NCBI GenBank assembly: GCA_947646735.1
Contig: CANTFK010000989.1
Coordinates: 62,001 to 126,000, forward strand
Length of the DNA stretch: 64,000 nucleotides
Source: Peronospora farinosa
Lineage: Eukaryota > Oomycota > Peronosporomycetes > Peronosporales > Peronosporaceae
Direction of reading: 5' to 3'
Shown one piece after another: positions 19,018 to 64,000 of this stretch (position 1 is the stretch's first letter; the number at the start of each line of letters is the position of its first letter). The notes under the pieces are model-generated. The model had not been told where the DNA came from. It worked only from the letters and a program-made list of their open reading frames with translations, and made no database searches. The position numbers and the translations under genes are program-made.

Positions 19018-20109
19018 CTAACGCCATTGGTTAGAGATCCCGCACTGGCAATGGAACCAGAGGGCGCTGTTCGTTTGGCCGGTATAATCGACAATGACCT
19101 CTGTCCCAGAGACAATATCGGATTGCGCCACCAGCGACACGACCACTCGTCGCCTCCCTCGCACCTTATGGAAGTGGGTGTTCGGGGTACAAGAATGCTC
19201 TACGAACAGCGCCACCGAGCCGCACTCTTCCGCGCTGACGTACACGCGGTGTGCTTTCGTGTCCCGTTGGCGCAATTCTACCGTATACGCCGCCTCACGT
19301 GGGGAGTCCAATACGTACTGGCCCTAATATTGACAGACCACACCTCCTGCTGGTGTGGGCCGCGTCGCCATCACGCCGATTCTCGTGCGTGTCATCTTCA
19401 ACTCCAGGAGTCGCTGTCAGAACTGGTTGTCGCACGCTTTCGCGCCTGGCGTGCACGTAACAGTCTCACATACCTGCTTCTCCGCCGCGTTCGGACACGT
19501 CGCGATCTCTCATCGTCCTTCACATCCGCATTTCTCCTCTCGTGCGCCAGGTATGTTAAAGGAGATCTTGTAGGGGTTCTGCATCATAGTGACACGCCGG
19601 ACGTCCGTCAGCCACGGTACCTGATGCCCCACTTTGTATTTCTGCAGTATCCAGTCCCGCGTTCCGTTGGCTGGTTCCTTGTCGTCGCTATCCGCTTGCG
19701 TCAGGTCGATCTCCTCCCTGATTTCTTCTTCATCATCGCGCTGCGCCGCTCTCTTCCTTCCTTCGTTGGGTGCTGGACACCACCATACTCGGGTGGATGA
19801 TCTTCCCGGCCACCACGTAGGGCAACCTTCTGACTCTCCCCTTCCGTCGTCTTCTTGACCATCCTTTCCGCATTTTCGCCGTGCTGCTAACTCTTCCCGC
19901 GTGTCGATGCCTGCTGTGTCCGGCGGCAGCGTCATCGCGCGCTGCGCCAGCCCAAAGTTCTTCTTCCACTGCTTCATGACCCGGGAGCGTAGGTGAACCG
20001 CCTTCCCGTAATCCCGGTCCGTCGGGTAGTCACCTTCTTCAGGCGTCTTCGGGACTACGGCGGCAGGCGGTGGCCACTCGGTCGGGGTACACTTCGTCCA
20101 GTTTGGCAT
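19018..20109 (-). pseudogene. SET-domain methyltransferase copy 8 of array 1 (3' terminal unit)
   Basis: Leader part open 20109-19510 and SET part open 19311-19018. Repeat homology ends at 19041. Beyond it the frame continues into a unique tail that turns the HCQCA of other copies into HCQCG, the usual beginning of a post-SET Cys motif, and then stops. This edge may therefore preserve the original 3' junction of the gene, or be a chance fusion. Confidence 0.8.
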
Positions 20110-20243
20110 ATGGCGTTGCGTCGACGCGTCAGCGAGAAAGGCACCACGTGCGACCGGGATGCCCGGTTCGGCAGAGCGCTTTTACAAGTGCGCCACTCGA
20201 TTGCGGTTTCGACGCAGATATTTATCTCGAAATATACGCAAGG

Positions 20244-21401
20244 TTACAATTGATGTACAGTAGTTGCTGGCTCGACTTCCTTCTTCATTGCGGTCGCGCG
20301 CAAGGCGTCTCGGTTTTCGTTCTGGTGCAAGGCGCACTGGCAATGGAACCAGAGGGCGCTGTTCGTTTGGCCGGTATAATCGACAATGACCTCTGTCCCA
20401 GAGACAATATCGGATTGCGCCACCAGCGACACGACCACTCGTCGCCTCCCCCGCACCTTATGGAAGTGGGTGTTCGGGGTACAAGAATGCTCTACGAACC
20501 GCGCCACCGAGCCGCACTCTTCCGCGCTGACGTACACGCGGTGTGCTTTCGTGTCCCGTTGGCGCAATTCTACCGTATACGCCGCCTCACGTGGGGGGTC
20601 CAATACGTACTGGCCCTAATATTGGCAGACCACACCTCCTGCTGGTGTGGGCCGCATCGCCATCACGCCGATTCCCGTGCGTGTCATCTTCAACTCCAGG
20701 AGTTGCTGTCAGAACTGGTTGTCGCACGCTTTCGCGCCTGGTGTGCACGTAACAGTCTCACATACCTGCTTCTCCGCCGCGTTCGGACACGTCGCGATCT
20801 CTCATCGTCCTTCACATCCGCATTTCTCCTCTCGTGCGCCAGGTATGTTAAAGGAGATCTTGTAGGGGTTCTGCATCATAGTGACACGCCGGACGTCCGT
20901 CAGCCACGGTACCTGATGCCCCACTTTGTATTTCTGCAGTATCCAGTCCCGCGTTCCGTTGGCTGGTTCCTTGTCGTCGCTATCCGCTTGCGTCAGGTCG
21001 ATCTCCTCCCTGATTTCTTCTTCATCATCGCGCTGCGCCGCTCTCTTCCTTCCTTCGTTGGGTGCTGGACACCACCATACTCGGGTGGATGATCTTCCCG
21101 GCCACCACGTAGGGCAACCTTCTGACTCTCCCCTTCCGTCGTCTTCTTGACCATCCTTTCCGCATTTTCGCCCTGCTTCTAACTCTTCCCGCGTGTCGAT
21201 GCCTGCTGTGTCCGGCGGCAGCGTCATCGCGCGCTGCGCCAGCCCAAAGTTCTTCTTCCACTGCTTCATGACCCGGGAGCGTAGGTGAAACGCCTTCCCG
21301 TAATCCTGGTCCGTCGGGTAGTCACCTTCTTCAGGCGTCTTCGGGACTACGGCGGCAGGCGGTGGCCACTCGGTCGGGGTACACTTCGTCCAGTTTGGCA
21401 T
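20244..21401 (-). pseudogene. SET-domain methyltransferase copy 7 of array 1
   Basis: Leader part open 21401-20802 and SET part open 20603-20244. Same three stops as the other array 1 copies. Confidence 0.85.
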
Positions 21402-21535
21402 ATGGCGTTGCGTCGACGCGTCAGCGAGAAAGGCACCACGTGCGACCGGGATGTCCGGTTCGGCAGAGCGCTTTTACAAGTGCGCCACTCGATTGCGGTT
21501 TCGACGCAGATATTTATCTCGAAATATACGCAAGG

Positions 21536-22690
21536 TTACAATTGATGTACAGTAGTTGCTGGCTCGACTTCCTTCTTCATTGCGGTCGCGCGCAAGGCGT
21601 CTCGGTTTTCGTTCTGGTGCAAGGCGCACTGGCAATGGAACCAGAGGGCGCTGTTCGTTTGGCCGGTATAATCGACAATGACCTCTGTCCCAGAGACAAT
21701 ATCGGATTGCGCCACCAGCGACACGACCACTCGTCGCCCCCCCCGCACCTTATGGAAGTGGGTGTTCGGGGTACAAGAATGCTCTACGAACCGCGCCACC
21801 GAGCCGCACTCTTCCGCGCTGACGTACACGCGGTGTGCTTTCGTGTCCCGTTGGCGCAATTCTACCGTATACGCCGCCTCACGTGGGGGGTCCAATACGT
21901 ACTGGCCCTAATATTGGCAGACCACATCTCCTGCTGGTATGGGCCGCGTCGCCACCACACCGATTCCCGTGCGTGTCATCTTCAACTCCAGGAGTCGCTG
22001 TCAGAACTGGTTGTCGCACGCTTTCGCGCCTGGCGTGCACGTAACAGTCTCACATACCTGCTTCTCCGCCGCGTTCGGACACGTCGCGATCTCTCATCGT
22101 CCTTCACATCCGCATTTCTCCTCTCGTGCGCCAGGTATGTTAAAGGAGATCTTGTAGGGGTTCTGCATCATAGTGACACGCCGGACGTCCGTCAGCCACG
22201 GTACCTGATGCCCCACTTTGTATTTCTGCAGTATCCAGTCCCGCGTTCCGTTGGCTGGTTCCTTGTCGCTATCCGCTTGCGTCAGGTCGATCTCCTCCCT
22301 GATTTCTTCTTCATCATCGCGCTGCGCCGCTCTCTTCCTTCCTTCGTTGGGTGCTGGACACCACCATACTCGGGTGGATGATCTTCCCGGCCACCACGTA
22401 GGGCAACCTTCTGACTCTCCCCTTCCGTCGTCTTCTTGACCATCCTTCCCGCATTTTCGCCGTGCTGCTGACTCTTCCCGCGTGCCGATGCCTGCTGTGT
22501 CCGGCGGCAGCGTCATCGCGCGCTGCGCCAGCCCAAAGTTCTTCTTCCACTGCTTCATGACCCGGGAGCGTAGGTGAACCGCCTTCCCGTAATCCCGGTG
22601 CATCGGGTAGTCACCTTCTTCAGGCGTCTTCGGGACTACAGCGGCAGGCGGTGGTCACTCGGTCGGGGTATACTTCGTCCAGTTTGGCAT
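21536..22690 (-). pseudogene. SET-domain methyltransferase copy 6 of array 1
   Basis: The leader after the ATG at 22690 has extra stops, including Trp to TGA as in copy 1, and the open part begins at 22603. A 3-bp in-frame deletion near 22267 removes one Asp. Its spacer and leader block (22640-22805) matches the array-edge version next to copy 1 rather than its neighbours, a sign of sequence exchange within the array. Confidence 0.85.
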
Positions 22691-22824
22691 ATGGCGTTGC
22701 GTCGACGCGTCAGCGAGAAAGGCACCACGTGCGACTGGGATGTCTGGTCCGGCAGCACCCTCTTGCTAGTGCGCCACTTGATTGCGGTTTCGACGTACAT
22801 ATTTATCTCGAAATATACGCAAGG

Positions 22825-23982
22825 TTACAATTGATGTACAGTAGTTGCTGGCTCGACTTCCTTCTTCATTGCGGTCGCGCGCAAGGCGTCTCGGTTTTCG
22901 TTCTGGTGCAAGGCGCACTGGCAATGGAACCAGAGGGCGCTGTTCGTTTGGCCGGTATAATCGACAATGACCTCTGTCCCAGAGACAATATCGGATTGCG
23001 CCACCAGCGACACGACCACTCGTCGCCTCCCCCGCACCTTATGGAAGTGGGTGTTCGGGGTACAAGAATGCTCTACGAACCGCGCCACCGAGCCGCACTC
23101 TTCCGCGCTGACGTACACGCGGTGTGCTTTCGTGTCCCGTTGGCGCAATTCTACCGTATACGCCGCCTCACGTGGGGGGTCCAATACGTACTGGCCCTAA
23201 TATTGGCAGACCACATCTCCTGCTGGTATGGGCCGCGTCGCCACCACACCGATTCCCGTGCGTGTCATCTTCAACTCCAGGAGTCGCTGTCAGAACTGGT
23301 TGTCGCACGCTTTCGCGCCTGGCGTGCACGTAACAGTCTCACATACCTGCTTCTCCGCCGCGTTCGGACACGTCGCGATCTCTCATCGTCCTTCACATCC
23401 GCATTTCTCCTCTCGTGCGCCAGGTATGTTAAAGGAGATCTTGTAGGGGTTCTGCATCATAGTGACACGCCGGACGTCCGTCAGCCACGGTACCTGATGC
23501 CCCACTTTGTATTTCTGCAGTATCCAGTCCCGCGTTCCGTTGGCTGGTTCCTTGTCGTCGCTATCCGCTTGCGTCAGGTCGATCTCCTCCCTGATTTCTT
23601 CTTCATCATCGCGCTGCGCCGCTCTCTTCCTTCCTTCGTTGGGTGCTGGACACCACCATACTCGGGTGGATGATCTTCCCGGCCACCACGTAGGGCAACC
23701 TTCTGACTCTCCCCTTCCGTCGTCTTCTTGACCATCCTTTCCGCATTTTCGCCGTGCTGCTGACTCTTCCCGCGTGCCGATGCCTGCTGTGTCCGGCGGC
23801 AGCGTCATCGCGCGCTGCGCCAGCCCAAAGTTCTTCTTCCACTGCTTCATGACCCGGGAGCGTAGGTGAACCGCCTTCCCGTAATCCCGGTGCATCGGGT
23901 AGTCACCTTCTTCAGGCGTCTTCGGGACTACGGCGGCAGGCGGTGGCCACTCGGTCGGGGTACACTTCGTCCAGTTTGGCAT
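22825..23982 (-). pseudogene. SET-domain methyltransferase copy 5 of array 1
   Basis: Leader part open 23982-23383 and SET part open 23184-22825. Same three stops as the other array 1 copies. No private lesion seen. Confidence 0.85.
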
Positions 23983-24116
23983 ATGGCGTTGCGTCGACGC
24001 GTCAGCGAGAAAGGCACCACGTGCGACCGGGATGTCCGGTTCGGCAGAGCGCTTTTACAAGTGCGCCACTCGATTGCGGTTTCGACGCAGATATTTATCT
24101 CGAAATATACGCAAGG

Positions 24117-25274
24117 TTACAATTGATGTACAGTAGTTGCTGGCTCGACTTCCTTCTTCATTGCGGTCGCGCGCAAGGCGTCTCGGTTTTCGTTCTGGTG
24201 CAAGGCGCACTGGCAATGGAACCAGAGGGCGCTGTTCGTTTGGCCGGTATAATCGACAATGACCTCTGTCCCAGAGACAATATCGGATTGCGCCACCAGC
24301 GACACGACCACTCGTCGCCTCCCCCGCACCTTATGGAAGTGGGTGTTCGGGGTACAAGAATGCTCTACGAACCGCGCCACCGAGCCGCACTCTTCCGCGC
24401 TGACGTACACGCGGTGTGCTTTCGTGTCCCGTTGGCGCAATTCTACCGTATACGCCGCCTCGCGTGGGGGGTCCAATACGTACTGGCCCTAATATTGGCA
24501 GACCACATCTCCTGCTGGTATGGGCCGCGTCGCCACCACACCGATTCCCGTGCGTGTCATCTTCAACTCCAGGAGTCGCTGTCAGAACTGGTTGTCGCAC
24601 GCTTTCGCGCCTGGCGTGCACGTAACAGTCTCACATACCTGCTTCTCCGCCGCGTTCGGACACGTCGCGATCTCTCATCGTCCTTCACATCCGCATTTCT
24701 CCTCTCGTGCGCCAGGTATGTTAAAGGAGATCTTGTAGGGGTTCTGCATCATAGTGACACGCCGGACGTCCGTCAGCCACGGTACCTGATGCCCCACTTT
24801 GTATTTCTGCAGTATCCAGTCCCGCGTTCCGTTGGCTGGTTCCTTGTCGTCGCTATCCGCTTGCGTCAGGTCGATCTCCTCCCTGATTTCTTCTTCATCA
24901 TCGCGCTGCGCCGCTCTCTTCCTTCCTTCGTTGGGTGCTGGACACCACCATACTCGGGTGGATGATCTTCCCGGCCACCACGTAGGGCAACCTTCTGACT
25001 CTCCCCTTCCGTCGTCTTCTTGACCATCCTTTCCGCATTTTCGCCGTGCTGCTGACTCTTCCCGCGTGCCGATGCCTGCTGTGTCCGGCGGCAGCGTCAT
25101 CGCGCGCTGCGCCAGCCCAAAGTTCTTCTTCCACTGCTTCATGACCCGGGAGCGTAGGTGAACCGCCTTCCCGTAATCCCGGTGCATCGGGTAGTCACCT
25201 TCTTCAGGCGTCTTCGGGACTACGGCGGCAGGCGGTGGCCACTCGGTCGGGGTACACTTCGTCCAGTTTGGCAT
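24117..25274 (-). pseudogene. SET-domain methyltransferase copy 4 of array 1
   Basis: Leader part open 25274-24675 and SET part open 24476-24117. It shares with copy 2 a silent change near 24465. Same three stops (Cys-cluster TGA, NQF-TGA, TAG) as the other array 1 copies. Confidence 0.85.
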
Positions 25275-25408
25275 ATGGCGTTGCGTCGACGCGTCAGCGA
25301 GAAAGGCACCACGTGCGACCGGGATGTCCGGTTCGGCAGAGCGCTTTTACAAGTGCGCCACTCGATTGCGGTTTCGACGCAGATATTTATCTCGAAATAT
25401 ACGCAAGG

Positions 25409-26567
25409 TTACAATTGATGTACAGTAGTTGCTGGCTCGACTTCCTTCTTCATTGCGGTCGCGCGCAAGGCGTCTCGGTTTTCGTTCTGGTGCAAGGCGC
25501 ACTGGCAATGGAACCAGAGGGCGCTGTTCGTTTGGCCGGTATAATCGACAATGACCTCTGTCCCAGAGACAATATCGGATTGCGCCACCAGCGACACGAC
25601 CACTCGTCGCCTCCCCCGCACCTTATGGAAGTGGGTGTTCGGGGTACAAGAATGCTCTACGAACCGCGCCACCGAGCCGCACTCTTCCGCGCTGACGTAC
25701 ACGCGGTGTGCTTTCGTGTCCCGTTGGCGCAATTCTACCGTATACGCCGCCTCACGTGGGGGGGTCCAATACGTACTGGCCCTAATATTGGCAGACCACA
25801 CCTCCTGCTGGTGTGGGCCGCATCGCCACCACACCGATTCCCGTGCGTGTCATCTTCAACTCCAGGAGTCGCTGTCAGAACTGGTTGTCGCACGCTTTCG
25901 CGCCTGGCGTGCACGTAACAGTCTCACATACCTGCTTCTCCGCCGCGTTCGGACACGTCGCGATCTCTCATCGTCCTTCACATCCGCATTTCTCCTCTCG
26001 TGCGCCAGGTATGTTAAAGGAGATCTTGTAGGGGTTCTGCATCATAGTGATACGCCGGACGTCCGTCAGCCACGGTACCTGATGCCCCACTTTGTATTTC
26101 TGCAGTATCCAGTCCCGCGTTCCGTTGGCTGGTTCCTTGTCGTCGCTATCCGCTTGCGTCAGGTCGATCTCCTCCCTGATTTCTTCTTCATCATCGCGCT
26201 GCGCCGCTCTCTTCCTTCCTTCGTTGGGTGCTGGACACCACCATACTCGGGTGGATGATCTTCCCGGCCACCACGTAGGGCAACCTTCTGACTCTCCCCT
26301 TCCGTCGTCTTCTTGACCATCCTTTCCGCATTTTCGCCGTGCTGCTGACTCTTCCCGCGTGCCGATGCCTGCTGTGTCCGGCGGCAGCGTCATCGCGCGC
26401 TGCGCCAGCCCAAAGTTCTTCTTCCACTGCTTCATGACCCGGGAGCGTAGGTGAACCGCCTTCCCGTAATCCCGGTGCATCGGGTAGTCACCTTCTTCAG
26501 GCGTCTTCGGGACTACGGCGGCAGGCGGTGGCCACTCGGTCGGGGTACACTTCGTCCAGTTTGGCAT
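25409..26567 (-). pseudogene. SET-domain methyltransferase copy 3 of array 1
   Basis: Leader part open 26567-25968. The SET part carries a seventh G near 25755, as in copy 1, and a G-to-A change near 26050 giving Ile for Val, also shared with copy 1. It also has the TGA in the Cys cluster and the conserved TAG. Confidence 0.85.
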
Positions 26568-26701
26568 ATGGCGTTGCGTCGACGCGTCAGCGAGAAAGGC
26601 ACCACGTGCGACCGGGATGTCCGGTTCGGCAGAGCGCTTTTACAAGTGCGCCACTCGATTGCGGTTTCGACGCAGATATTTATCTCGAAATATACGCAAG
26701 G

Positions 26702-27859
26702 TTACAATTGATGTACAGTAGTTGCTGGCTCGACTTCCTTCTTCATTGCGGTCGCGCGCAAGGCGTCTCGGTTTTCGTTCTGGTGCAAGGCGCACTGGCA
26801 ATGGAACCAGAGGGCGCTGTTCGTTTGGCCGGTATAATCGACAATGACCTCTGTCCCAGAGACAATATCGGATTGCGCCACCAGCGACACGACCACTCGT
26901 CGCCTCCCCCGCACCTTATGGAAGTGGGTGTTCGGGGTACAAGAATGCTCTACGAACCGCGCCACCGAGCCGCACTCTTCCGCGCTGACGTACACGCGGT
27001 GTGCTTTCGTGTCCCGTTGGCGCAATTCTACCGTATACGCCGCCTCGCGTGGGGGGTCCAATACGTACTGGCCCTAATATTGGCAGACCACATCTCCTGC
27101 TGGTATGGGCCGCGTCGCCACCACACCGATTCCCGTGCGTGTCATCTTCAACTCCAGGAGTCGCTGTCAGAACTGGTTGTCGCACGCTTTCGCGCCTGGC
27201 GTGCACGTAACAGTCTCACATACCTGCTTCTCCGCCGCGTTCGGACACGTCGCGATCTCTCATCGTCCTTCACATCCGCATTTCTCCTCTCGTGCGCCAG
27301 GTATGTTAAAGGAGATCTTGTAGGGGTTCTGCATCATAGTGACACGCCGGACGTCCGTCAGCCACGGTACCTGATGCCCCACTTTGTATTTCTGCAGTAT
27401 CCAGTCCCGCGTTCCGTTGGCTGGTTCCTTGTCGTCGCTATCCGCTTGCGTCAGGTCGATCTCCTCCCTGATTTCTTCTTCATCATCGCGCTGCGCCGCT
27501 CTCTTCCTTCCTTCGTTGGGTGCTGGACACCACCATACTCGGGTGGATGATCTTCCCGGCCACCACGTAGGGCAACCTTCTGACTCTCCCCTTCCGTCGT
27601 CTTCTTGACCATCCTTTCCGCATTTTCGCCGTGCTGCTGACTCTTCCCGCGTGCCGATGCCTGCTGTGTCCGGCGGCAGCGTCATCGCGCGCTGCGCCAG
27701 CCCAAAGTTCTTCTTCCACTGCTTCATGACCCGGGAGCGTAGGTGAACCGCCTTCCCGTAATCCCGGTGCATCGGGTAGTCACCTTCTTCAGGCGTCTTC
27801 GGGACTACGGCGGCAGGCGGTGGCCACTCGGTCGGGGTACACTTCGTCCAGTTTGGCAT
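26702..27859 (-). pseudogene. SET-domain methyltransferase copy 2 of array 1
   Basis: The leader part is open for 199 codons (27859-27260), then stops at TGA inside the Cys cluster. The SET part (27061-26702) is open after the conserved TAG and holds VARFVEHSCTPNTHFH and the WFHCQC post-SET start. It is near identical to copy 4, as expected from the dimer duplication. Confidence 0.85.
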
Positions 27860-27993
27860 ATGGCGTTGCGTCGACGCGTCAGCGAGAAAGGCACCACGTG
27901 CGACCGGGATGTCCGGTTCGGCAGAGCGCTTTTACAAGTGCGCCACTCGATTGCGGTTTCGACGCAGATATTTATCTCGAAATATACGCAAGG

Positions 27994-29152
27994 TTACAAT
28001 TGATGTACAGTAGTTGCTGGCTCGACTTCCTTCTTCATTGCGGTCGCGCGCAAGGCGTCTCGGTTTTCGTTCTGGTGCAAGGCGCACTGGAAATGGAACC
28101 AGAGGGCGCTGTTCGTTTGGCCGGTATAATCGACAATGACCTCTGTCCCAGAGACAATATCGGATTGCGCCACCAGCGACACGACCACTCGTCGCCTCCC
28201 CCGCACCTTATGGAAGTGGGTGTTCGGGGTACAAGAATGCTCTACGAACCGCGCCACCGAGCCGCACTCTTCCGCGCTGACGTACACGCGGTGTGCTTTC
28301 GTGTCCCGTTGGCGCAATTCTACCGTATACGCCGCCTCACGTGGGGGGGTCCAATACGTACTGGCCCTAATATTGGCAGACCACACCTCCTGCTGGTGTG
28401 GGCCGCATCGCCACCACACCGATTCCCGTGCGTGTCATCTTCAACTCCAGGAGTCGCTGTCAGAACTGGTTGTCGCACGCTTTCGCGCCTGGCGTGCACG
28501 TAACAGTCTCACATACCTGCTTCTCCGCCGCGTTCGGACACGTCGCGATCTCTCATCGTCCTTCACATCCGCATTTCTCCTCTCGTGCGCCAGGTATGTT
28601 AAAGGAGATCTTGTAGGGGTTCTGCATCATAGTGATACGCCGGACGTCCGTCAGCCACGGTACCTGATGCCCCACTTTGTATTTCTGCAGTATCCAGTCC
28701 CGCGTTCCGTTGGCTGGTTCCTTGTCGTCGCTATCCGCTTGCGTCAGGTCGATCTCCTCCCTGATTTCTTCTTCATCATCGCGCTGCGCCGCTCTCTTCC
28801 TTCCTTCGTTGGGTGCTGGACACCACCATACTCGGGTGGATGATCTTCCCGGCCACCACGTAGGGCAACCTTCTGACTCTCCCCTTCCGTCGTCTTCTTG
28901 ACCATCCTTTCCGCATTTTCGCCGTGCTGCTGACTCTTCCCGCGTGCCGATGCCTGCTGTGTCCGGCGGCAGCGTCATCGCGCGCTGCGCCAGCCCAAAG
29001 TTCTTCTTCCACTGCTTCATGACCCGGGAGCGTAGGTGAACCGCCTTCCCGTAATCCCGGTCCGTCGGGTAGTCACCTTCTTCAGGCGTCTTCGGGACTA
29101 CGGCGGCAGGCGGTGGTCACTCGGTCGGGGTATACTTCGTCCAGTTTGGCAT
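27994..29152 (-). pseudogene. SET-domain methyltransferase copy 1 of array 1 (edge unit)
   Basis: First unit in the reading direction. Its leader ATG at 29152 is followed by TGA at 29119-29117, where most copies have Trp, so translation could only start further in (28553-29020 is open). A seventh G near 28340 shifts the frame just after the conserved TAG. The leader-spacer end carries a diverged block (29190-29288) shared only with copy 6. Confidence 0.8.
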
Positions 29153-29288
29153 ATGGCGTTGCGTCGACGCGTCAGCGAGAAAGGCACCACGTGCGACTGG
29201 GATGTCTGGTCCGGCAGCACCCTCTTGCTAGTGCGCCACTTGATTGCGGTTTCGACGTACATATTTATCTCGAAAAAGACGCAAGGTT

Positions 29289-29458
29289 GTGATTGAGTCG
29301 TTGTAAATTACTGTAGTTACGGTACTTGCACTAATGTTAATTTTACTTATGTTTATTGTTACTTTTAATAGCAATCTTACTTGTATTTTTGACAATTATT
29401 TCACTTGCACTGTCGATTTAAAAAATATTTTATTATCCTTTCATTTTCGACAAGTAGC
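29289..29458. other. Spacer between array 1 and TMEM18
   Basis: An AT-rich 170-bp stretch that must hold both the TMEM18 promoter and any upstream sequence of array 1. No element recognised. Confidence 0.4.
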
Positions 29459-29980
29459 ATGGACGGCATAGCATCGCAGATGGCGCACGATCTACGCTCC
29501 AAGTACAGCCAAGTGATGATTAAATGGTACGAGGCTGTAGATTGGACAGAGCCTTTCATTGTGGGATTGCTTTTATTTCACGTCGTACTTCTCGCCACGC
29601 TCTGGCTGACACGCAAGCGTCTGTACCCGCAGTTTGCACTCTTTGTGCTTGTCATCACGTTATTAGTAAGCACTGAGGCGCTAAATACGTGGGGAAGAAA
29701 AAACTGGCGTCTCTTTGCCACCCAGCAGTATTTTGACGCGAATGGCGTCTTCATGGGCATCTTCTACGCTGGACCATTGCTTGCTGCAGGCTTTTTCCAA
29801 TTGGTCTGTCAAAATTGTCAAAAACTATGTCGTATTGTCAAAAATACCTGTAAAAAGCTTGTCTGATGTTATTCTTGTCGTGTATTGTAGATACTGAACA
29901 TGAAGCATATGGTGGACATGGTGGTAGTTGTTAAGAGAACAGAATATCTACAGCAGCTCCAATCCAAGAAGGACAAGTAG
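29459..29980 (+). CDS. TMEM18: TMEM18 family membrane protein
   Basis: Two exons, 29459-29803 and 29891-29980, give 144 residues, the usual TMEM18 length. Hallmarks are DWTEPFIVGLLLFH near the N-terminus, the NWRLFATQQYFDANGVFMGI block, three hydrophobic segments (about residues 30-50, 57-75 and 98-115) and a Lys-rich C-terminal coiled tail. TMEM18 is a three-pass protein of the inner nuclear membrane in animals, with a basic C-terminus proposed to bind DNA. The intron donor is GTCTGT, less usual, but the junction restores the family C-terminus. The ATG at 29459 is the only good start. The gene begins 170 bp from the end of SET array 1. Confidence 0.9.
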
Positions 29981-30064
29981 AGAAATATCATGAAAATGGT
30001 GCAAAATGCTTTTTTGAAAAGAGATTTACACTGTGATTGGTGCTTAAGAGCTCGAGTTTGTGAC

Positions 30065-31902: not shown

Positions 31903-32474
31903 GTTAATCGAGTTATGCGACTGATTATGGGGAGATATTGTAAGCGAAATAGAGAGAGATTGAAACTGAGGACATGTCCCGCGTACGTATTGACAGACCT
32001 TCTGTAAAATTTGACCAATCAGAGCCAAGACAGAATAGAAAGTATGAGTAGAAAAACCATCTATCCATCAACGATAAAAGCGTTTGTATGAGATAAAATC
32101 TCATATCTTTGCCCAATCTTATTCGTTATTGAATTTACAAAATTAAGTGCCCACCAAATTATAGTCCAGTGCATTTTATAACATGCGAAAAGCGGTACAA
32201 ATCTACGCCACATTGTGTCGTGTCCTCGTATATATCATAACCTCATATATGTCATACGCGCGATGTAGCGATGCACCGTGTGACAAGAACAGGTGTTCTT
32301 AACTGGGTACATTCATGGCTTTTAAGTGCCTCTTTTACTGTATCTCAAGGGGCACAAAGCGAGATTATAATCTGATGGTTCTTCTTGTAGCGAGCGACAA
32401 ATGAAACAATGCATAAGGCCTTGCAGGATAAAATGCCAATATTACATCTCCCTTGTATTTTAGTATCGGCACTT
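31903..32474. other. Intergenic region
   Basis: AT-rich 572-bp spacer between the NAPRT start and the stop of the split gene, both on the minus strand. No ORF of note. It probably holds the NAPRT promoter and the 3' UTR of the split gene. Confidence 0.5.
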
Positions 32475-35691: not shown

Positions 35692-35705
35692 ATCGTCCCC
35701 TGCAC
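35692..35705 (-). other. Polypurine tract
   Basis: Directly upstream of the 3' LTR the minus strand reads GTGCAGGGGACGAT, a short purine-rich tract in the expected place for plus-strand priming. It is short and imperfect. Confidence 0.55.
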
Positions 35706-49570: not shown

Positions 49571-50051
49571 GAATAAAATCCGAGTGAGAAAGAATCTGTT
49601 TGTAGAGGTTTTCAGACCGAATCAGATTGTCCCTACAATCTGAGGAGACAAAGTGTCGTATTCATGTAACGTTACATAACCTTTTCACTCTTCCATAATA
49701 AAAACCTCAAAACCTCATCATCCCTAGTAAAACCAAGTCTGTCTCTTGCAGTAAGTATCCTCATACAAATTTCAAGTCTAATCAGGGCTTCAGCAAGACC
49801 AATAGCACAGAGTGAAGACCCAAGGTGGCACAGGGGCAGCCCATTGTCTCGACCGTCTCGAGCGTGCCCATAATCCTCTTTATCCTTCATTGTGTACTCT
49901 TCCCTTCTTCTTCTCGATCAGATTATTCTCGTGGTAAAAGTGTACTCTCCATTTCCGAAGTGATCCAAGTGCTGTTAAAGTGTAGACACAGTTGAAAACA
50001 AAGTTGCTCTTATAGACGTTTTTCGGCTTTTACAGCTGAATTGAAAGGCTA
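49571..50051. other. Intergenic region upstream of the WNK kinase gene
   Basis: About 480 bp with no gene seen. Presumed promoter and 5' UTR of the kinase gene. Only short open frames at 49672-49890 on the minus strand. Confidence 0.45.
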
Positions 50052-53327: not shown

Positions 53328-54738
53328 AGAACCTAGCAACTGTGTGATGGTGCGTTATTTCCGTGATGCTGTCAAGTGTTTGCTTAGATTATTCGGCTCA
53401 GACGTGAAGAAGCCGTCGCGAGGTGCTAACCGTAAGCTCGCCAGGATTCACAGCAAAGGGTATTGGCTGGAGACGGACGGCGGAACGCGACTGAGGAGAT
53501 TCTTGTTATTTTGATGGGAGGGCGACGTGTGAAAATATGAATTGGCAACCCGAGTTGGACGTGTTTTGCAAATTATTCCTGATCTCGCTTCCCTTATTTG
53601 CTTGGGCTACATTATCTATGGAGCACCAATATAAATAGAAGTGCCAGAGTTGGCGGCTCGGAGCTTAAGTGACAACGTTTACTCTCTCATTCGAGGTGTA
53701 GAAATGTCAATGACAGGAACGGACTTACGTGGAAAGACGTCAATCAACGTGATCGTCCAGAGGCAGACGATCAATTCAGTGGGACGTAAGGGGGTTTCTG
53801 CGCCTGTACTTGTGATTTCAATAGTACATGCATACAGTCCGTCTTTGGCAGTAGTTCTGTGCTCGCCTTTCGTAGGAATCCCACTTGTTTGGGTTGGAAA
53901 TCGTACGTTAAATGTCTTGGAGCCTTAAGGAACTTAACCCTCTTCCTCAATTTGCGTCGATATGATGCCATTGACTGAATCATGCGCATGACAATCGCTG
54001 AAAAATTGTAGCATGAACGTTTGTGCGATTGTATGCACAACAAGTGCATCACGTTACTTGCAAAGCTGTAGCTCATAAGCGTTAGTAGATTTCACGAGTT
54101 AGTTACTGGTTCGAGTGCTGCCATCTTGTATGTTCAGCCTTACGGTTGGAAGAGGTAGGAGAGGTAAGATAGACAGTATTTCTTAAGATAGCAACACCAA
54201 AGGTGGTCCTCAGCTATCACGAAATAGCCGTCAAGACAACTAATCTTTTCACTGAAAAGGATAGGCACGTCATAGGTTTCATTCATGAGTTGGCATGAAA
54301 CGTATTCGCATCGAACACTGTCTCTGCGTGTTCCTGACGAACGGGACAAGTATGCACGTTGACACCGATCCCATGGCGTCAGCAAGCCCGTAGCATACGT
54401 GAGACGGCGGGGGGGGGAATCTAAGCATGCTTTAGCAGCAGGAATTCTTTTGTTAGCGGACAGCGTACTTCTAGAAGCACAAGATACCAACTCGCTGATC
54501 TTTGTATCGTCTCTGGTATCTACTTGTCCGAAGAAGGACCCCATGCATCCTAAGACCTCTACGACGTCTGAACGTCATTGCCGATTCATAGCTGCCCTCT
54601 TTGATGCCATTCCCTTGTGATACGTCAACCTCACAAGAAACAAATAGCACACAAAATGCCTTGTTGAGCTCTTTAACAAATGAAAACCTTTCTGTCAGTA
54701 CAATGGTATTTGGTATTATTCGGTGCAGTGCTCATGCT
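53328..54738. other. Intergenic region between the WNK gene and array 2
   Basis: About 1.4 kb. Open frames at 53641-53928 (+) and 54140-54544 (-) have no recognisable domain and are shorter than expected for genes here. A C/G run (nine G) lies at 54409-54417. No gene called. Confidence 0.5.
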
Positions 54739-56028
54739 CCTTGCACCAGAACGAAAACCGAGACGCCTTGCGCGCGACCGCAATGAAGAAGGAAGTCGAG
54801 CCAGCAACTATTGTACATCAATTGTAACCTTGCGTATATTTCGAGATAAATATCTGCGTCGAAACCGCAATCGAGTGGCGCACTTGTAAAAGCGCTCTGC
54901 CGAACCGGACATCCCGGTCGCACGTGGTGCCTTTCTCGCTGACGCGTCGACGCAACGCCATATGCCAACTGGACGAAGTGTACCCCGACCGAGTGGCCAC
55001 CGCCTGCCGCCGTAGTCCCGAAGACGCCTGAAGAAGGTGACTACCCGATGCACCGGGATTACGGGAAGGCGGTTCACCTACGCTCCCGGTTCATGAAGCA
55101 GTGGAAGAAGAACTTTGGGCTGGCGCAGCGCGCGATGACGCTGCCGCCGGACACAGCAGGCATCGACACGCGGGAAGAGTTAGCAGCACGGCGAAAATGC
55201 GGGAAGGATGGTCAAGAAGACGCCGGAAGGGGAGAGTCAGAAGGTTGCCCTACGTAGTGGCCGGGAAGATCATCCACCCGAGTATGGTGGTGTCCAGCAC
55301 CCAACGAAGGAAGGAAGAGAGCGGCGCAGCGCGATGATGAAGAAGAAATCAGGGAGGAGATCGACCTGACGCAAGCGGATAGCGACGACAAGGAACCAGC
55401 CAACGGAACGCGGGACTAGATACTGCAGAAATATAAAGTGAGGCAACAGGTACCGTGGCCGACGGACGTCCGGCGTGTCACTATGATGCAGAACCCCTAC
55501 AAGATCTCCTTTAACATACCTGGCGCACGAGAGGAAAAATGCGGATGTGAAGGACGATGCGAGATCGCGACGTGTCCGAACGCGGCGGAGAAGCAGGTAT
55601 GTGAGACTGTTACGTGCACGCCAGGCGCGAAAGCGTGCGACAACCAGTTCTGACAGCGACTCCTGGAGTTGAAGATGACACGCACGGGAATCGGTGTGGT
55701 GGCGACGCGGCCCATACCAGCAGGAGGTGTGGTCTGCCAATATTAGGGCAAGTACGTATTGGACCCCCCACGTGAGGCGGCGTATACGGTAGAATTGCGC
55801 CAACGGGACACGAAAGCACACCGCGTGTACGTCAGCGCGGAAGAGTGCGGCTCGGTGGCGCGGTTCGTAGAGCATTCTTGTACCCCGAACACCCACTTCC
55901 ATGAGGTGCGGGGGAGGCGACGAGTGGTCGTGTCGCTGGTGGCGCAATCCGATATTGCCTCTGGGACAGAGGTCATTGTCAATTATACCGGCCAAACGAA
56001 CAGCGCCTTCTGGTTTCATTGCCAGTGA
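54739..56028 (+). pseudogene. SET-domain methyltransferase copy 1 of array 2 (edge unit)
   Basis: The most decayed copy of array 2. A base is missing in the leader near 54962-54972. There are extra TAG stops at 55255-55257 and near 55418, NQF-TGA, the conserved TAG at 55744-55746, and a TGA at 56026-56028 cutting the SET part at HCQ. Confidence 0.85.
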
Positions 56029-56339
56029 GCCTTGCACCAGAACGAAAACCGAGACGCCTTGCGCGCGACCGCAATGAAGAAGGAAGTCGAGCCAGCAACT
56101 ACTGTACATCAATTGTAACCTTGCGTATATTTCGAGATAAATATCTGCGTCGAAACCGCAATCGAGTGGCGCACTTGTAAAAGCGCTCTGCCGAACCGGA
56201 CATCCCGGTCGCACGTGGTGCCTTTCTCGCTGACGCGTCGACGCAACGCCATATGCCAAACTGGAAGTAGTGTACCCCGACCGAGTGGCCACCGCCTGCC
56301 GCCTTAGTCCCGAAGACGCCTGAAGAAGGTGACTACCCG

Positions 56340-57410
56340 ATGCACCGGGATTACGGGAAGGCGGTTCACCTACGCTCCCGGGTCATGAAGCAGTGGAAGA
56401 AGAACTTTGGGCTGGCGCAGCGCGCGATGACGCTGCCGCCGGACACAGCAGGCATCGACACGCGGGAAGAGTTAGCAGCACGGCGAAAATGCGGGAAGGA
56501 TGGTCAAGAAGACGCAGGAAGGGGAGAGTCAGAAGGTTGCCCTACGTGGTGGCCGGGAAGATCATCCACCCGAGTATGGTGGTTTCCAGCACCCAACGAA
56601 GGAAGGAAGAGAGCGGCGCAGCGCGATGATGAAGAAGAAATCAGGGAGGAGATCGACCTGACGCAAGCGGATAGCGACGACAAGGAACCAGCCAACGGAA
56701 CGCGGGACTGGATACTGCAGAAACATAAAGTGAGGCAACAGGTACCGTGGCCGACGGACGTCCGGCGTGTCACTATGATGCAGAACCCCTACAAGATCTC
56801 CTTTAACATACCTGGCGCACGAGAGGAAAAATGCGGATGTGAAGGACGATGCGAGATTGCGACGTGTCCGAACGCGGCGGAGAAGCAGGTATGTGAGACT
56901 GTTACGTGCACGCCAGGCGCGAAAGCGTGCGACAACCAGTTCTGACAGCGACTCCTGGAGTTGAAGATGACACGCACGGGAATCGGCGTGGTGGCGACGC
57001 GGCCCATACCAGCAGGAGGTGTGGTCTGCCAATATTAGGGCCAGTACGTATTGGACTCCCCACGTGAGGCGGCGTATACGGTAGAATTGCGCCAACGGGA
57101 CACGAAAGCACACCGCGTGTACGTCAGCGCGGAAGAGTGCGGCTCGGTGGCGCGGTTCGTAGAGCATTCTTGTACCCTGAACACCCACTTCCATGAGGTG
57201 CGGGGGAGGCGACGAGTGGTCGTGTCGCTGGTGGCGCAATCCGATATTGCCTCTGGGACAGAGGTCATTGTCGATTATACCGGCCAAACGAACAGCGCCC
57301 TCTGGTTCCATTGCCAGTACGCCTTGCACCAGAACGAAAACCGAGACGCCTTGCGCGCGACCGCAATGAAGAAGGAAGTCGAGCCAGCAACTACTGTACA
57401 TCAATTGTAA
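56340..57410 (+). pseudogene. SET-domain methyltransferase copy 2 of array 2
   Basis: Open 56340-56945 through the acidic region and most of the AWS-like Cys cluster, then TGA after DNQF, then the conserved TAG at 57036-57038. SET part open 57051-57410. Confidence 0.85.
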
Positions 57411-57631
57411 CCTTGCGTATATTTCGAGATAAATATCTGCGTCGAAACCGCAATCGAGTGGCGCACTTGTAAAAGCGCTCTGCCGAACCGGACATCCCGG
57501 TCGCACGTGGTGCCTTTCTCGCTGACGCGTCGACGCAACGCCATATGCCAAACTGGAAGTAGTATACCCCGACCGAGTGGCCAACGCCTGCCGCCTTAGT
57601 CCCGAAGACGCCTGAAGAAGGTGACTACCCG

Positions 57632-58702
57632 ATGCACCGGGATTACGGGAAGGCGGTTCACCTACGCTCCCGGGTCATGAAGCAGTGGAAGAAGAACTTT
57701 GGACTGGCGCAGCGCGCGATGACGCTGCCGCCGGACACAGCAGGCATCGACACGCGGGAAGAGTTAGCAGCACGGCGAAAATGCGGGAAGGATGGTCAAG
57801 AAGACGCAGGAAGGGGAGAGTCAGAAGATTGCCCTACGTGGTGGCCGGGAAGATCATCCACCCGAGTATGGTGGTTTCCAGCACCCAACGAAGGAAGGAA
57901 GAGAGCGGCGCAGCGCGATGATGAAGAAGAAATCAGGGAGGAGATCGACCTGACGCAAGCGGATAGCGACGACAAGGAACCAGCCAACGGAACGCGGGAC
58001 TGGATACTGCAGAAACATAAAGTGAGGCAACAGGTACCGTGGCCGACGGACGTCAGGCGTGTTACTATGATGCAGAACCCCTACAAGATCTCCTTTAACA
58101 TACCTGGCGCACGAGAGGAAAAATGCGGATGTGAAGGACGATGCGAGATCGCGACGTGTCCGAACGCGGCGGAGAAGCAGGTATGTGAGACTGTTACGTG
58201 CACGCCAGGCGCGAAAGCGTGCGACAACCGGTTCCGACAGCGACGCCTGGAGTTGAAGATGACACGCACGGGAATCGGCGTGGTGGCGACGCGGCCCATA
58301 CCAGCAGGAGATGTGGTCTGCCAATATTAGGTCCAGTACGTATTGGACCCCCCACGTGAGGCGGCGTATACGGTAGAATTGCGCCAACGGGACACAAAAG
58401 CACACCGCGTGTACGTCAGCGCGGAAGAGTGCGGCTCGGTGGCGCGGTTCGTAGAGCATTCTTGTACCCTGAACACCCACTTCCATGAGGTGCGGGGGAG
58501 GCGACGAGTGGTCGTGTCGCTGGTGGCGCAATCCGATATTGCCTCTGGGACAGAGGTCATTGTCGATTATACCGGCCAAACGAACAGCGCCCTCTGGTTC
58601 CATTGCCAGTGCGCCTTGCACCAGAACGAAAACCGAGACGCCTTGCGCGCGACCGCAATGAAGAAGGAAGTCGAGCCAGCAACTACTGTACATCAATTGT
58701 AA
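57632..58702 (+). pseudogene. SET-domain methyltransferase copy 3 of array 2
   Basis: Among the best-preserved copies. It is open 57632-58330 through CGCEGRCEIATCPN, CETVTCTPGAKACDNRF and GIGVVATRPIPAG, and stops only at the conserved TAG (58328-58330). The SET remainder is open 58343-58702, with VARFVEHSCT and the post-SET start. AWS-SET enzymes methylate histone H3 lysines. Only one codon separates this copy from an open methyltransferase frame. Confidence 0.88.
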
Positions 58703-58923
58703 CCTTGCGTATATTTCGAGATAAATATCTGCGTCGAAAACGCAATCGAGTGGCGCACTTGTAAAAGCGCTCTGCCGAACCGGACATCCCGGTCGCACGT
58801 GGTGCCTTTCTCGCTGACGCGTCGACGCAACGCCATATGCCAAACTGGACGAAGTATACCCCGACCGAGTGACCACCGCCTGCCGCCGTAGTCTCGAAGA
58901 CGCCTGAAGAAGGTGACTACCCG

Positions 58924-59995
58924 ATGCACCGGGATTACGGGAAGGCGGTTCACCTACGCTCCCGGGTAATGAAGCAGTGGAAGAAGAACTTTGGACTGGC
59001 GCAGCGCGCGATGACGCTGCCGCCGGACACAGCAGGCATCGACACGCGGGAAGAGTTAGCAGCACGGCGAAAATGCGGGAAGGATGGTCAAGAAGACGCC
59101 GGAAGGGGAGAGTCAGAAGGTTGCCCTACGTGGTGGCCGGGAAGATCATCCACCCGAGTATGGTGGTGTCCAGCACCCAACGGAGGAAGGAAGAGAGCGG
59201 CGAAGCGCGATGATGAAGAAGAAATCAGGGAGGAGATCGACCTGACGCAAGCGGATAGCGACGACAAGGAACCAGCCAACGGAACGCGGGACTGGATACT
59301 GCAGAAATATAAAGTGGGGCAACAGGTACCGTGGCCGACGGACGTCCGGCGTGTCACTATGATTCAGAACCCCTACAAGATCTCCTTTAACATACCTGGC
59401 GCACGAGAGGAGAAATGCGGATGTGAAGGACGATGCGAGATCGCGACGTGTCCGAACGCGGCGGAGAAGCAGGTATGTGAGACTGTTACGTGCACGCCAG
59501 GCGCGAAAGCGTGCGACAACCGGTTCCGACAGCGACGCCTGGAGTTGAAGATGACACGCACGGGAATCGGCGTGGTGGCGACGCGGCCCATACCAGCAGG
59601 AGGTGTGGTCTGCCAATATTAGGGCCAGTACGTATTGGACTCCCCACGTGAGGTGGTGTATACGGTAGAATTGCGCCAACGGGACACAAAAGCACACCGC
59701 GTGTACGTCAGCGCGGAAGAGTGCGGCTCGGTGGCGCGGTTTGTAGAGCATTCTTGTACCCCGAACACCCACTTCCATGAGGTGCGGGGGAGGCGACGAG
59801 TGGTCGTGTCGCTGGTGGCGCAATCCGATATTATCTTTGGGACAGAGGTCATTGTCGATTATACCGGCCAAACGAACAGTGCCCTCTGGTTTCACTTGCC
59901 AGTGCGCCTTGCACCAGAACGAAAACCGAGACGCCTTGCGCGCGACCGCAATGAAGAAGGAAGTCGAGCCAGCAACTACTGTACATCAATTGTAA
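58924..59995 (+). pseudogene. SET-domain methyltransferase copy 4 of array 2
   Basis: Open 58924-59622 to the conserved TAG. The following SET part starts near 59635 but has a 1-bp insertion near 59897, in the HCQ codons, which shifts the frame into the spacer. Confidence 0.85.
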
Positions 59996-60216
59996 CCTTG
60001 CGTATATTTCGAGATAAATATCTGCGTCGAAAACGCAATCGAGTGGCGCACTTGTAAAAGCGCTCTGCCGAACCGGACATCCCGGTCGCACGTGGTGCCT
60101 TTCTCGCTGACGCGTCGACGCAACGCCATATGCCAAACTGGACGAAGTATACCCCGACCGAGTGACCACCGCCTGCCGCCGTAGTCCCGAAGACGCCTGA
60201 AGAAGGTGACTAACCG

Positions 60217-61287
60217 ATGCACCGGGATTACGGGAAGGCGGTTCACCTACGCTCCCGGGTAATGAAGCAGTGGAAGAAGAACTTTGGGCTGGCGCAGCGC
60301 GCGATGACGCTGCCGCCGGACACAGCAGGCATCGACACGCGGGAAGAGTTAGCAGCACGGCGAAAATGCGGGAAGGATGGTCAAGAAGACGCCGGAAGGG
60401 GAGAGTCAGAAGGTTGCCCTACGTGGTGGCCGGGAAGATCATCCACCCGAGTATGGTGGTGTCCAGCACCCAACGAAGGAAGGAAGAGAGCGGCGAAGCG
60501 CGATGATGAAGAAGAAATCAGGGAGGAGATCGACCTGACGCAAGCGGATAGCGACGACAAGGAACCAGCCAACGGAACGCGGGACTGGATACTGCAGAAA
60601 TATAAAGTGGGGCAACAGGTACCGTGGCCGACGGACGTCCGGCGTGTCACTATGATTCAGAACCCCTACAAGATCTCCTTTAACATACCTGGCGCACGAG
60701 AGGAGAAATGCGGATGTGAAGGACGATGCGAGATCGCGACGTGTCCGAACGCGGCGGAGGAGCAGGTATGTGAGACTGTTACGTGCACGCCAGGCGCGAA
60801 AGCGTGCGACAACCGGTTCCGACAGCGACGCCTGGAGTTGAAGATGACACGCACGGGAATCGGCGTGGTGGCGACGCGGCCCATACCAGCAGGAGGTGTG
60901 GTCTGCCAATATTAGGGCCAGTACGTATTGGACTCCCCACGTGAGGCGGCGTATACGGTAGAATTGCGCCAACGGGACACGAAAGCACACCGCGTGTACG
61001 TCAGCGCGGAAGAGTGCGGCTCGGTGGCGCGGTTCGTAGAGCATTCTTGTACCCCGAACACCCACTTCCATGAGGTGCGGGGGAGGCGACGAGTGGTCGT
61101 GTCGCTGGTGGCGCAATCCGATATTGTCTTTGGGACAGAGGTCATTGTCGATTATACCGGCCAAACGAACAGCGCCCTCTGGTTTCATTGCCAGTGCGCC
61201 TTGCACCAGAACGAAAACCGAGACGCCTTGCGCGCGACCGCAATGAAGAAGGAAGTCGAGCCAGCAACTACTGTACATCAATTGTAA
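60217..61287 (+). pseudogene. SET-domain methyltransferase copy 5 of array 2
   Basis: Open 60217-60915 to the conserved TAG and 60928-61287 after it. No other lesion seen. Has Glu for Lys in the Cys cluster (AEEQVCE), shared with copy 6. Confidence 0.88.
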
Positions 61288-61508
61288 CCTTGCGTATATT
61301 TCGAGATAAATATCTGCGTCGAAACCGCAATCGAGTGGCGCGCTTGTAAAAGCGCTCTGCCGAACCGGACATCCCGGTCGCACGTGGTGCCTTTCTCGCT
61401 GACGCGTCGACGCAACGCCATATGCCAAACTGGACGAAGTATACCCCGACCGAGTGACCACCGCCTGCCGCCGTAGTCTCGAAGACGCCTGAAGAAGGTG
61501 ACTACCCG

Positions 61509-62579
61509 ATGCACCGGGATTACGGGAAGGCGGTTCACCTACGCTCCCGGGTAATGAAGCAGTGGAAGAAGAACTTTGGGCTGGCGCAGCGCGCGATGAC
61601 GCTGCCGCCGGACACAGCAGGCATCGACACGCGGGAAGAGTTAGCAGCACGGCGAAAATGCGGGAAGGATGGTCAAGAAGACGCCGGAAGGGGAGAGTCA
61701 GAAGGTTGCCCTACGTGGTGGCCGGGAAGATCATCCACCCGAGTATGGTGGTGTCCAGCACCCAACGAAGGAAGGAAGAGAGCGGCGAAGCGCGATGATG
61801 AAGAAGAAATCAGGGAGGAGATCGACCTGACGCAAGCGGATAGCGACGACAAGGAACCAGCCAACGGAACGCGGGACTGGATACTGCAGAAATATAAAGT
61901 GGGGCAACAGGTACCGTGGCCGACGGACGTCCGGCGTGTCACTATGATTCAGAACCCCTACAAGATCTCCTTTAACATACCTGGCGCACGAGAGGAGAAA
62001 TGCGGATGTGAAGGACGATGCGAGATCGCGACGTGTCCGAACGCGGCGGAGGAGCAGGTATGTGAGACTGTTACGTGCACGCCAGGCGCGAAAGCGTGCG
62101 ACAACCGGTTCCGACAGCGACGCCTGGAGTTGAAGATGACACGCACGGGAATCGGCGTGGTGGCGACGCGGCCCATACCAGCAGGAGGTGTGGTCTGCCA
62201 ATATTAGGGCCAGTACGTATTGGACTCCCCACGTGAGGCGGCGTATACGGTAGAATTGCGCCAACGGGACACGAAAGCACACCGCGTGTACGTCAGCGCG
62301 GAAGAGTGCGGCTCGGTGGCGCGGTTCGTAGAGCATTCTTGTACCCCGAACACCCACTTCCATGAGGTGCGGGGGAGGCGACGAGTGGTCGTGTCGCTGG
62401 TGGCGCAATCCGATATTGCCTCTGGGACAGAGGTCATTGTCGATTATACCGGCCAAACGAACAGCGCCCTCTGGTTCCATTGCCAGTGCGCCTTGCACCA
62501 GAACGAAAACCGAGACGCCTTGCGCGCGACCGCAATGAAGAAGGAAGTCGAGCCAGCAACTACTGTACATCAATTGTAA
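61509..62579 (+). pseudogene. SET-domain methyltransferase copy 6 of array 2
   Basis: Open 61509-62207 to the conserved TAG and 62220-62579 after it. No other lesion seen. Nearly identical to copy 5. Confidence 0.88.
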
Positions 62580-62800
62580 CCTTGCGTATATTTCGAGATA
62601 AATATCTGCGTCGAAACCGCAATCGAGTGGCGCACTTGTAAAAGCGCTCTGCCGAACCGGACATCCCGGTCGCACGTGGTGCCTTTCTCGCTGACGCGTC
62701 GACGCAACGCCATATGCCAAACTGGAAGTAGTATACCCCGACCGAGTGGCCACCGCCTGCCGCCGTAGTCCCGAAGACGCCTGAATAAGGTGACTACCCG

Positions 62801-63871
62801 ATGCACCGGGATTACGGGAAGGCGGTTCACCTACGCTCCCGGGTAATGAAGCAGTGGAAGAAGAACTTTGGGCTGGCGCAGCGCGCGATGACGCTGCCGC
62901 CGGACACAGCAGGCATCGACACGCGGGAAGAGTTAGCAGCACGGCGAAAATGCGGGAAGGATGGTCAAGAAGACGCCGGAAGGGGAGAGTCAGAAGATTG
63001 TCCTACGTGGTGGCCGGGAAGATCATCCACCCGAGTATGGTGGTGTCCAGCACCCAACGAAGGAAGGAAGAGAGCGGCGAAGCGCGATGATGAAGAAGAA
63101 ATCAGGGAGGAGATCGACCTGACGCAAGCGGATAGCGACGACAAGGAACCAGCCAACGGAACGCGGGACTGGATACTGCAGAAATACAAAGTGGGGCAAC
63201 AGGTACCGTGGCCGACGGACGTCCGGCGTGTCACTATGATGCAGAACCCCTACAAGATCTCCTTTAACATACCTGGCGCACGAGAGGAGAAATGCGGATG
63301 TGAAGGACGATGCGAGATCGTGACGTGTCCGAACGCGGCGGAGAAGCAGGTATGTGAGACTGTTACGTGCACGCCAGGCGCGAAAGCGTGCGACAACCAG
63401 TTCTGACAGCGACGCCTGGAGTTGAAGATGACACGCACGGGAATCGGCGTGGTGGCGACGCGGCCCATACCAGCAGGAGGTGTGGTCTGCCAATATTAGG
63501 GCCAGTACGTATTGGACCCCCCACGTGAGGCGGCGTATACGGTAGAATTGCGCCAACGGGACACGAAAGCACACCGCGTGTACGTCAGTGCGGAAGAGTG
63601 CGGCTCGGTGGCGCGGTTCGTAGAGCATTTTTGTACCCCGAACACCCACTTCCATGAGGTGCGGGGGAGGCGACGAGTGGTCGTGTCGCTGGTGGCGCAA
63701 TCCGATATTGTCTTTGGGACAGAGGTCATTGTCGATTATACCGGCCAAACGAACAGCGCCCTCTGGTTTCATTGCCAGTACGCCTTGCACCAGAACGAAA
63801 ACCGAGACTCCTTGCGCGCGACCGCAATGAAGAAGGAAGTCGAGCCAGCAACTATTGTACATCAATTGTAA
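62801..63871 (+). pseudogene. SET-domain methyltransferase copy 7 of array 2
   Basis: Open 62801-63406, then TGA after DNQF, then the conserved TAG at 63497-63499. SET part open 63512-63871, with Phe for Ser in EHFCTPN at the SET catalytic-site motif. The next unit begins beyond it and runs off the window. Confidence 0.85.
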
Positions 63872-64000
63872 CCTTGCGTATATTTCGAGATAAAAATCTG
63901 CATCGAAACCGCAATCGAGTGGCGCACTTGTAAAAGCGCTCTGCCGAACCGGACATCCCGGTCGCACGTGGTGCCTTTCTCGCTGACGCGTCGACGCAAC

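Follow-up and report, generated by a model that had tools for sequence, protein, structure and literature searches.

The locus described here is a window of 64,000 nucleotides (64 kb, free of N bases) from the oomycete Peronospora farinosa, corresponding to positions 62001-126000 of contig CANTFK010000989.1 (G000:C269; the other C numbers used below are contigs of the same assembly). It holds two arrays of a tandemly repeated unit of 1.29 kb with a SET-domain reading frame. The arrays are inverted relative to each other and flank a 25.4-kb interval made up of a nicotinate phosphoribosyltransferase (NAPRT) gene (30065..31618, minus strand, two exon open reading frames, ORFs), a Gypsy retrotransposon (34356..47958, minus strand) and a WNK-type protein kinase gene (50052..53327, plus strand, 1091 amino acids). 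Outside the left array lie a leucine-rich repeat (LRR) gene similar to a PP1 regulatory subunit (15102..16256, minus strand, two exon ORFs) and a WY-domain effector-like gene (17132-18601, plus strand, four PexRD54_WY stretches). An earlier, sequence-only reading of the window had described the two inverted arrays, and this was confirmed, with both starts (19041 and 54739) exact and the left end now measured at 29296. It had also described the interval as 25 kb of single-copy genes, but 13.6 kb of it is the Gypsy element, which was missed along with a Helitron piece in the units and about 22 kb of array past the window.

The left array, delimited by unit alignment at 19041-29296 (C269:81041-91296) with its SET sense on the minus strand, consists of seven full units of 1289-1293 bp and two end pieces, namely 643 bp at the outer end (unit bases 650-1292) and 570 bp at the inner end (29296..29297, at unit base 570). 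The right array has its SET sense on the plus strand. Its part inside the window (54739..64000) begins with a 648-bp piece in which unit bases 649 down to 1 come first, followed by six full units and a cut seventh; it then runs 21.97 kb beyond the window, to C269:147965, giving 23 full and two partial units, or about 24, in all. By BLAST this array would start at 54735, but a paralogous stretch on C28, discussed below, shows that 54735-54738 reads as flank, hence 54739. Both arrays together hold 30 full and four partial units over 41.5 kb, i.e. about 32 unit lengths, and 32 SET matches were found in them (eight left, 24 right). When aligned with a reference unit of 1292 bp, the copies show 96.5-100% identity. 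With about 32 near-identical tandem units over the approximate 1 kb that marks a macrosatellite, the arrays belong to that class, as had been proposed earlier. They also bear the mark of concerted evolution, since neighboring units of the right array differ at 11.5 sites on average and units 11 apart at 19.6.

The two arrays break off in a matching manner. At the left breakpoint (19040..19041) the flank ends with ...GAGATCC and the array opens at unit base 650, while at the right breakpoint (54738..54739) the array opens at unit base 649 and the flank, reading away on the minus strand, begins with AGCATGAGC... The end pieces are thus complementary and blunt, the left outer end starting from base 650 and the right inner end running to base 649, and together they amount to a single unit length. 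Between the breakpoints lies a segment of 35,698 bp (19041..54738) with the left array, the NAPRT gene, the Gypsy element and the kinase gene. Elsewhere in the assembly (274 contigs, 46.85 Mb), contig C28 carries a paralogous stretch in which both flanks adjoin each other in uninverted form, ...GAGATCC being followed directly by AGCATCAGC...; after the last base of the left flank, C28 continues with AGCATCAGCA..., which corresponds to AGCATGAGCA... of the right inner flank. The BLAST pieces are 74-84% identical, the left one reaching the last flank base, and no loss or gain at the junction itself is visible in comparison with this paralogue. The paralogous stretch covers at least 364533-366826 and stops short of the kinase frame.

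The gene order in other oomycetes points the same way. The LRR gene, outside the putative inversion, and the kinase gene, inside it, are 34 kb apart in the window. The LRR search gave six proteins, three of which could be paired with a kinase: the locus tags are 005136/005137 in Peronosclerospora sorghi, 001910/001907 in Bremia lactucae (distance 3) and 005308/005312 in Pythium oligandrum (distance 4), with contig sizes equal in both searches for each species. No kinase was found for Phytophthora kernoviae among the best 120 of 250 matches. The choice of P. sorghi as a synteny reference is in keeping with the abstract of PMC9997571, which describes its chromosomes as highly syntenic with those of P. 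effusa.

Read in the SET sense, each unit is composed of about 1136 bp of SET pseudogene starting from an internal ATG, 12 bp, and a 144-bp spacer. In one example on the minus strand, the pseudogene part occupies 24139..25274 (with its ATG-side end at 25274 and three stops in the copy), and the spacer 23983..24126, where about 48 bp without a match are joined to a fragment of a Helitron reading frame. This fragment, about 96 bp long (108 when SET-side bases are included), matches the 5' part of Helitron frames on C24, C270, C189 and C46 at 74-79% identity, and on C24 and C270 the Helitron_like_N domain follows about 0.9 kb downstream of the spacer-like stretch. Past the outer end of the array, the last spacer continues into decayed Helitron coding sequence, which can be aligned collinearly with the C270 Helitron frame over about 590 bp (77% identity); this remnant has a Helitron_like_N match on the same strand at C269:150509-150955 (128.7 bits, one stop). 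A Pfam search for Helitron domains with the C270 peptide over the spacer-like part gave no match, because the peptide lies upstream of the Helitron_like_N domain. Four dispersed SET copies, on C42, C223 (two copies, C223a and C223b) and C225, have sequence in common upstream of the ATG (74-86% over the matched parts), although the match in C225 sits about 1.2 kb further upstream. None of the four shares any upstream sequence or spacer with the array unit, and therefore only the array unit is cut at the ATG. At the level of sequence, these comparisons show the unit to be a chimera of a SET pseudogene and part of a Helitron reading frame. As a separate observation, a repeat of roughly 230 bp that adjoins the C225 SET copy was also found on C189 and inside the Helitron remnant (C269:148886-149114).

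Given this composition, the units might also be read as head-to-tail non-autonomous Helitrons in a rolling-circle concatemer, which would accommodate the Helitron fragment in the units, the remnant beyond the array and an inner end that opens with TC. Helitrons end with 5' TC and 3' CTRR, however, while the unit junctions read GTACA followed by TCAATTG, i.e. without CTRR before the TC. Moreover, the Helitron piece is coding sequence containing no terminus, and the dispersed SET copies lack the spacer, so that we find a concatemer quite improbable. A variant in which the array would sit inside a Helitron with a TC end was dropped, as the 48 bp beside that end are unmatched outside the arrays. 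In Helitron gene capture, host gene sequence is held between Helitron ends and dispersed. The fusion of host gene and Helitron sequence is a point of similarity, but the SET piece is here joined to a Helitron coding fragment instead of lying between ends, and the result is tandem.

Together, these data suggest that the two arrays are very probably a single macrosatellite of SET-Helitron pseudogene units that was cut by a single 35.7-kb inversion, with the inner end of the left array (unit base 570) as the presumed upstream end of the former array. An inversion is the most likely explanation from the sequence comparisons, with three separate lines in its support and a fourth, the separate drift of the halves, consistent with it. 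Several points weigh against this reading. On C28, BLAST picks up the right inner flank 31 bases in, with the preceding bases aligned by eye, and C28 differs from the flank by small indels within 40 bp and carries about 0.2 kb extra further on. The locus tags in Bremia and P. oligandrum are near each other, not adjacent, and in Globisporangium splendens the LRR and kinase genes are on contigs whose lengths differ (277,765 and 813,755), so that linkage is not shown there. Since the two parts of the split unit have no bases in common, they are not comparable with each other. As for the unit itself, Helitron_like_N is not listed at C189 or C46, and about 48 bp of the spacer have no match outside the arrays at an E-value of 10 or less. 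Finally, the copy number is that of the assembly. Tandem units of 1.3 kb pose difficulties for assembly, and a single array could in principle have been collapsed or misjoined into two inverted ones. A false join would, however, need sequence shared by both ends, and the left break has no similarity to the unit or to the other three 5-kb flanks. The halves also carry different fixed variants, and 25 P. effusa protein sequences (see below) place the unit in another assembly, although the inverted form is not shown there. An assembly error is thus very unlikely.

The gene-derived nature of the unit, which the sequence-only reading had proposed, is supported by its SET Pfam match (E 3.6e-15; 56.7 bits against a cut-off of 22.4, with the frame read through and X at the stops). 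The read-through peptide aligns with the structures of EHMT2, ASH1L, NSD and SETD2, the best relatives in PDB being EHMT2, ASH1L and NSD. The cysteine region upstream can be aligned with ASH1L (from residue 203) and NSD3 (from residue 187), yet no AWS Pfam match was obtained in the unit peptide at an E-value of 10 or less. Like these enzymes in the alignable SET region, and like ASH1L and NSD in the cysteine region, the unit nevertheless differs from AWS-SET methyltransferases in this missing AWS match, in the stops in its SET frame and in the motif RFVEHSC, compared in one unit with RFINHLC of EHMT2. NHS is the cofactor motif of SET domains, and EHS stands in its place.

The decay of the frame extends over the whole array. 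A stop codon is present in all 32 SET matches. A sequence pattern caught 27 of the 32 gene starts (eight left, one of them cut at the 3' end, and 19 right), and every one of these 27 frames, read as a whole, contains two or more stops. The TAG in the SET domain falls on codon 262 in 25 of the 27 and on codon 261 in another, which has a 3-base deletion; in the last unit, a frameshift precedes it. Stops are also present in the five right gene starts that the pattern did not catch. Compared with the C42 copy, one left and one right unit have ratios of nonsynonymous to synonymous substitution (dN/dS) of 0.81 and 1.04 in the SET half; for the N-terminal half, which includes a poorly aligning stretch, the values are 0.92 and 0.84. 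The C42 copy is itself broken, by stops and a 1.4-kb insertion. The frame would thus seem to be under little or no purifying selection, although pulling in the other direction is a pooled ratio of polymorphisms (pN/pS) of 0.74, somewhat below 1, from 17 of the 27 frames, chosen for having no shift and few stops, with the other ten dropped. The C42 insertion (L014 about 5102-6507) is repeat-like and includes a minisatellite. Antisense to the SET pseudogene, eleven ORFs of 278-279 amino acids occur, five in the left array and six in the right, but their survival says little because the divergence among units is just 1-3%.

The closest protein to the array is a P. effusa database entry, here called P0001, of 341 amino acids with a SET domain and 25 member sequences. 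The presence of such proteins in the annotation of another assembly could suggest a working tandem family of SET genes, spliced as in the P. effusa model. In P0001, however, the SET domain comes before the N-terminus, which is the reverse of the order in two other P. effusa proteins (P0002 and P0003) and in C42, and the stretch holding the SET stop is left out. In alignments with three units, identity is 90-94% over its SET part and 96-98% over its N-terminal part. Judged from these alignments, P0001 is a gene model that crosses a boundary, from the SET of one unit into the N-terminus of the next, because its order is that of two successive units. Together with the stops in 32 of 32 SET matches, dN/dS near 1 and the replacement of NHS by EHS, this makes a working family highly unlikely. 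The earlier designation as a histone-methyltransferase gene unit accordingly holds for the AWS-SET-like coding content and fails for a working gene, with selection weak or absent; on the available sequence, the unit is a broken pseudogene and not a functional methyltransferase family. The array would then make no methyltransferase, and any effect would be exerted as repeat DNA, through unstable copy number, silencing in its neighborhood or further flipping between the inverted arrays. The 25 members of P0001, a count that may include database duplicates, point to a comparable array in another assembly. P0002, with a weak and partial SET match only, and P0003 are relatives at 43-50% identity. 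P0003 (KXD40_006808) has no near-identical copy in the genome, where long matches reach at most 57% and shorter pieces 68%, which may reflect presence/absence variation or an assembly gap. In a search for a SET family in other oomycetes, only three of 2688 candidate proteins, chosen by a word-based pre-filter, matched at an E-value of 0.001 or less, and all three are from P. effusa.

The simplest history starts with a SET pseudogene situated immediately 5' of a Helitron. The SET piece and the beginning of the Helitron frame would have been duplicated in tandem, and expansion and homogenisation by unequal crossing-over with gene conversion could then have produced one head-to-tail macrosatellite of about 32 units. 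Speaking against such a beginning, the founding unit is not seen: the inner end begins inside the spacer, at base 570, so that a subsequent loss, or another junction, has to be assumed for the first event. The inversion would have cut between unit bases 649 and 650 and at a unique site beyond the kinase gene, flipping 35.7 kb so that eight units were left inverted, after which the halves would have drifted apart.

The divergence between units is consistent with such separate change of the two halves, being 0.95% within the left array, 1.30% within the right and 2.27% between them, with five fixed differences (seven left and 23 right full units). The same five sites and 2.27% could be taken to mean that the arrays arose separately, or that one was copied in inverted orientation. 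This leaves unexplained the exactly complementary ends (any given pair of ends would match by chance about once in 1292 cases, two pairs being possible), as well as the uninverted C28 paralogue and the kinase-LRR neighborhood in other oomycetes, and a separate origin is scarcely credible. Two left units, Lf03 (22265-23556) and Lf08 (28727-29296), have a common block of 12 variants in 63 bp of spacer (alignment columns 471-533) that is absent from all other units and is likely to be a local gene-conversion tract.

Certain features of the arrays are known from other systems, and the structure, while unusual, is explained by known processes. D4Z4/DUX4 is a gene-bearing macrosatellite whose retrogene frame is kept and can be expressed. 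The arrays resemble it in their homogenised kilobase tandem units with gene-derived sequence, but no open frame is kept (at least two stops in 27 of 27 whole frames and a stop in each of the 32 SET matches), and the array is most likely split by an inversion. In P. effusa, PMC11540230 describes 33-39 tandem clusters per isolate of short interspersed nuclear element (SINE)-like units of 284-1070 bp with tRNA, showing inversions within the array and copy-number variation. The present arrays are similar to these in their tandem units, frameshifted ORFs and near-identical subgroups (PMC11540230), but are derived from a SET pseudogene and a Helitron. That they are another such cluster, a suggestion favored by the ORFs and within-array inversions in P. 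effusa (PMC11540230), is extremely unlikely, as the unit measures 1292 bp and ARAGORN, run at its standard threshold, detected no tRNA. With the threshold lowered, 148-462 hits appeared over the window, and these were rejected as noise. Rfam gave no match in the whole window at gathering thresholds and none in two units at an E-value of 10 or less. The terms 'Helitron', 'methyltransferase' and 'SET domain' are absent from the main text of PMC11540230, and no description of the array was found in searches of the open-access PMC literature (on tandem SET in P. effusa, oomycete macrosatellites and Helitrons).

If the proposed inversion took place, it would have brought the array to 440 bp from the 3' end of the WY-domain effector-like gene, from about 26 kb, a former distance that holds if the Gypsy element was already present. 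The C28 paralogous stretch takes in the end of this gene and its downstream region. Tandem repeats vary by unequal crossing-over, and inverted repeats can recombine and flip the interval between them; the copy number of the array should thus change, and recombination between the inverted arrays could turn the 25-kb middle round once more. The idea in the sequence-only reading that the inverted arrays could mediate inversion is turned around in part, since an inversion seems to have made the arrays inverted to begin with. If the inverted arrays gave rise to double-stranded RNA or were packed as heterochromatin, the rearrangement might turn the effector-like gene and the kinase region on or off, with flipping of the middle as a reversible switch among isolates. 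We consider this improbable.

The locus offers a base-resolved case of large inverted arrays that would stem from a single inversion breaking within a macrosatellite, where the uninverted junction is kept in a paralogue of the same genome, and of a satellite probably formed from a SET pseudogene and a Helitron fragment. It also calls for caution, as the P. effusa 'SET-domain proteins' in databases include models spanning two units. In the crop pathogen concerned (spinach downy mildew), where most of the variation known so far is found in repeats and gene clusters, the arrays may furthermore serve as markers of structural change.

Regarding the genes in the interval, the WNK-type kinase, which served as the synteny marker inside the putative inversion, is over its full length 99% identical to one P. 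effusa protein, with a shorter P. effusa model at 93% and P. destructor at 87%. On this kinase identity, the sequence would be assigned to P. effusa. The Gypsy element has a chromodomain match and long terminal repeats (LTRs) at 34356-35691 and 46621-47958 that are 99.5% identical to each other. Between its pol and 3' LTR, and opposite to gag-pol, lies an ORF of 861 amino acids (35777-38362, plus strand) with tandem repeats of 18/36 bp at 36792-37124 and no Pfam match.

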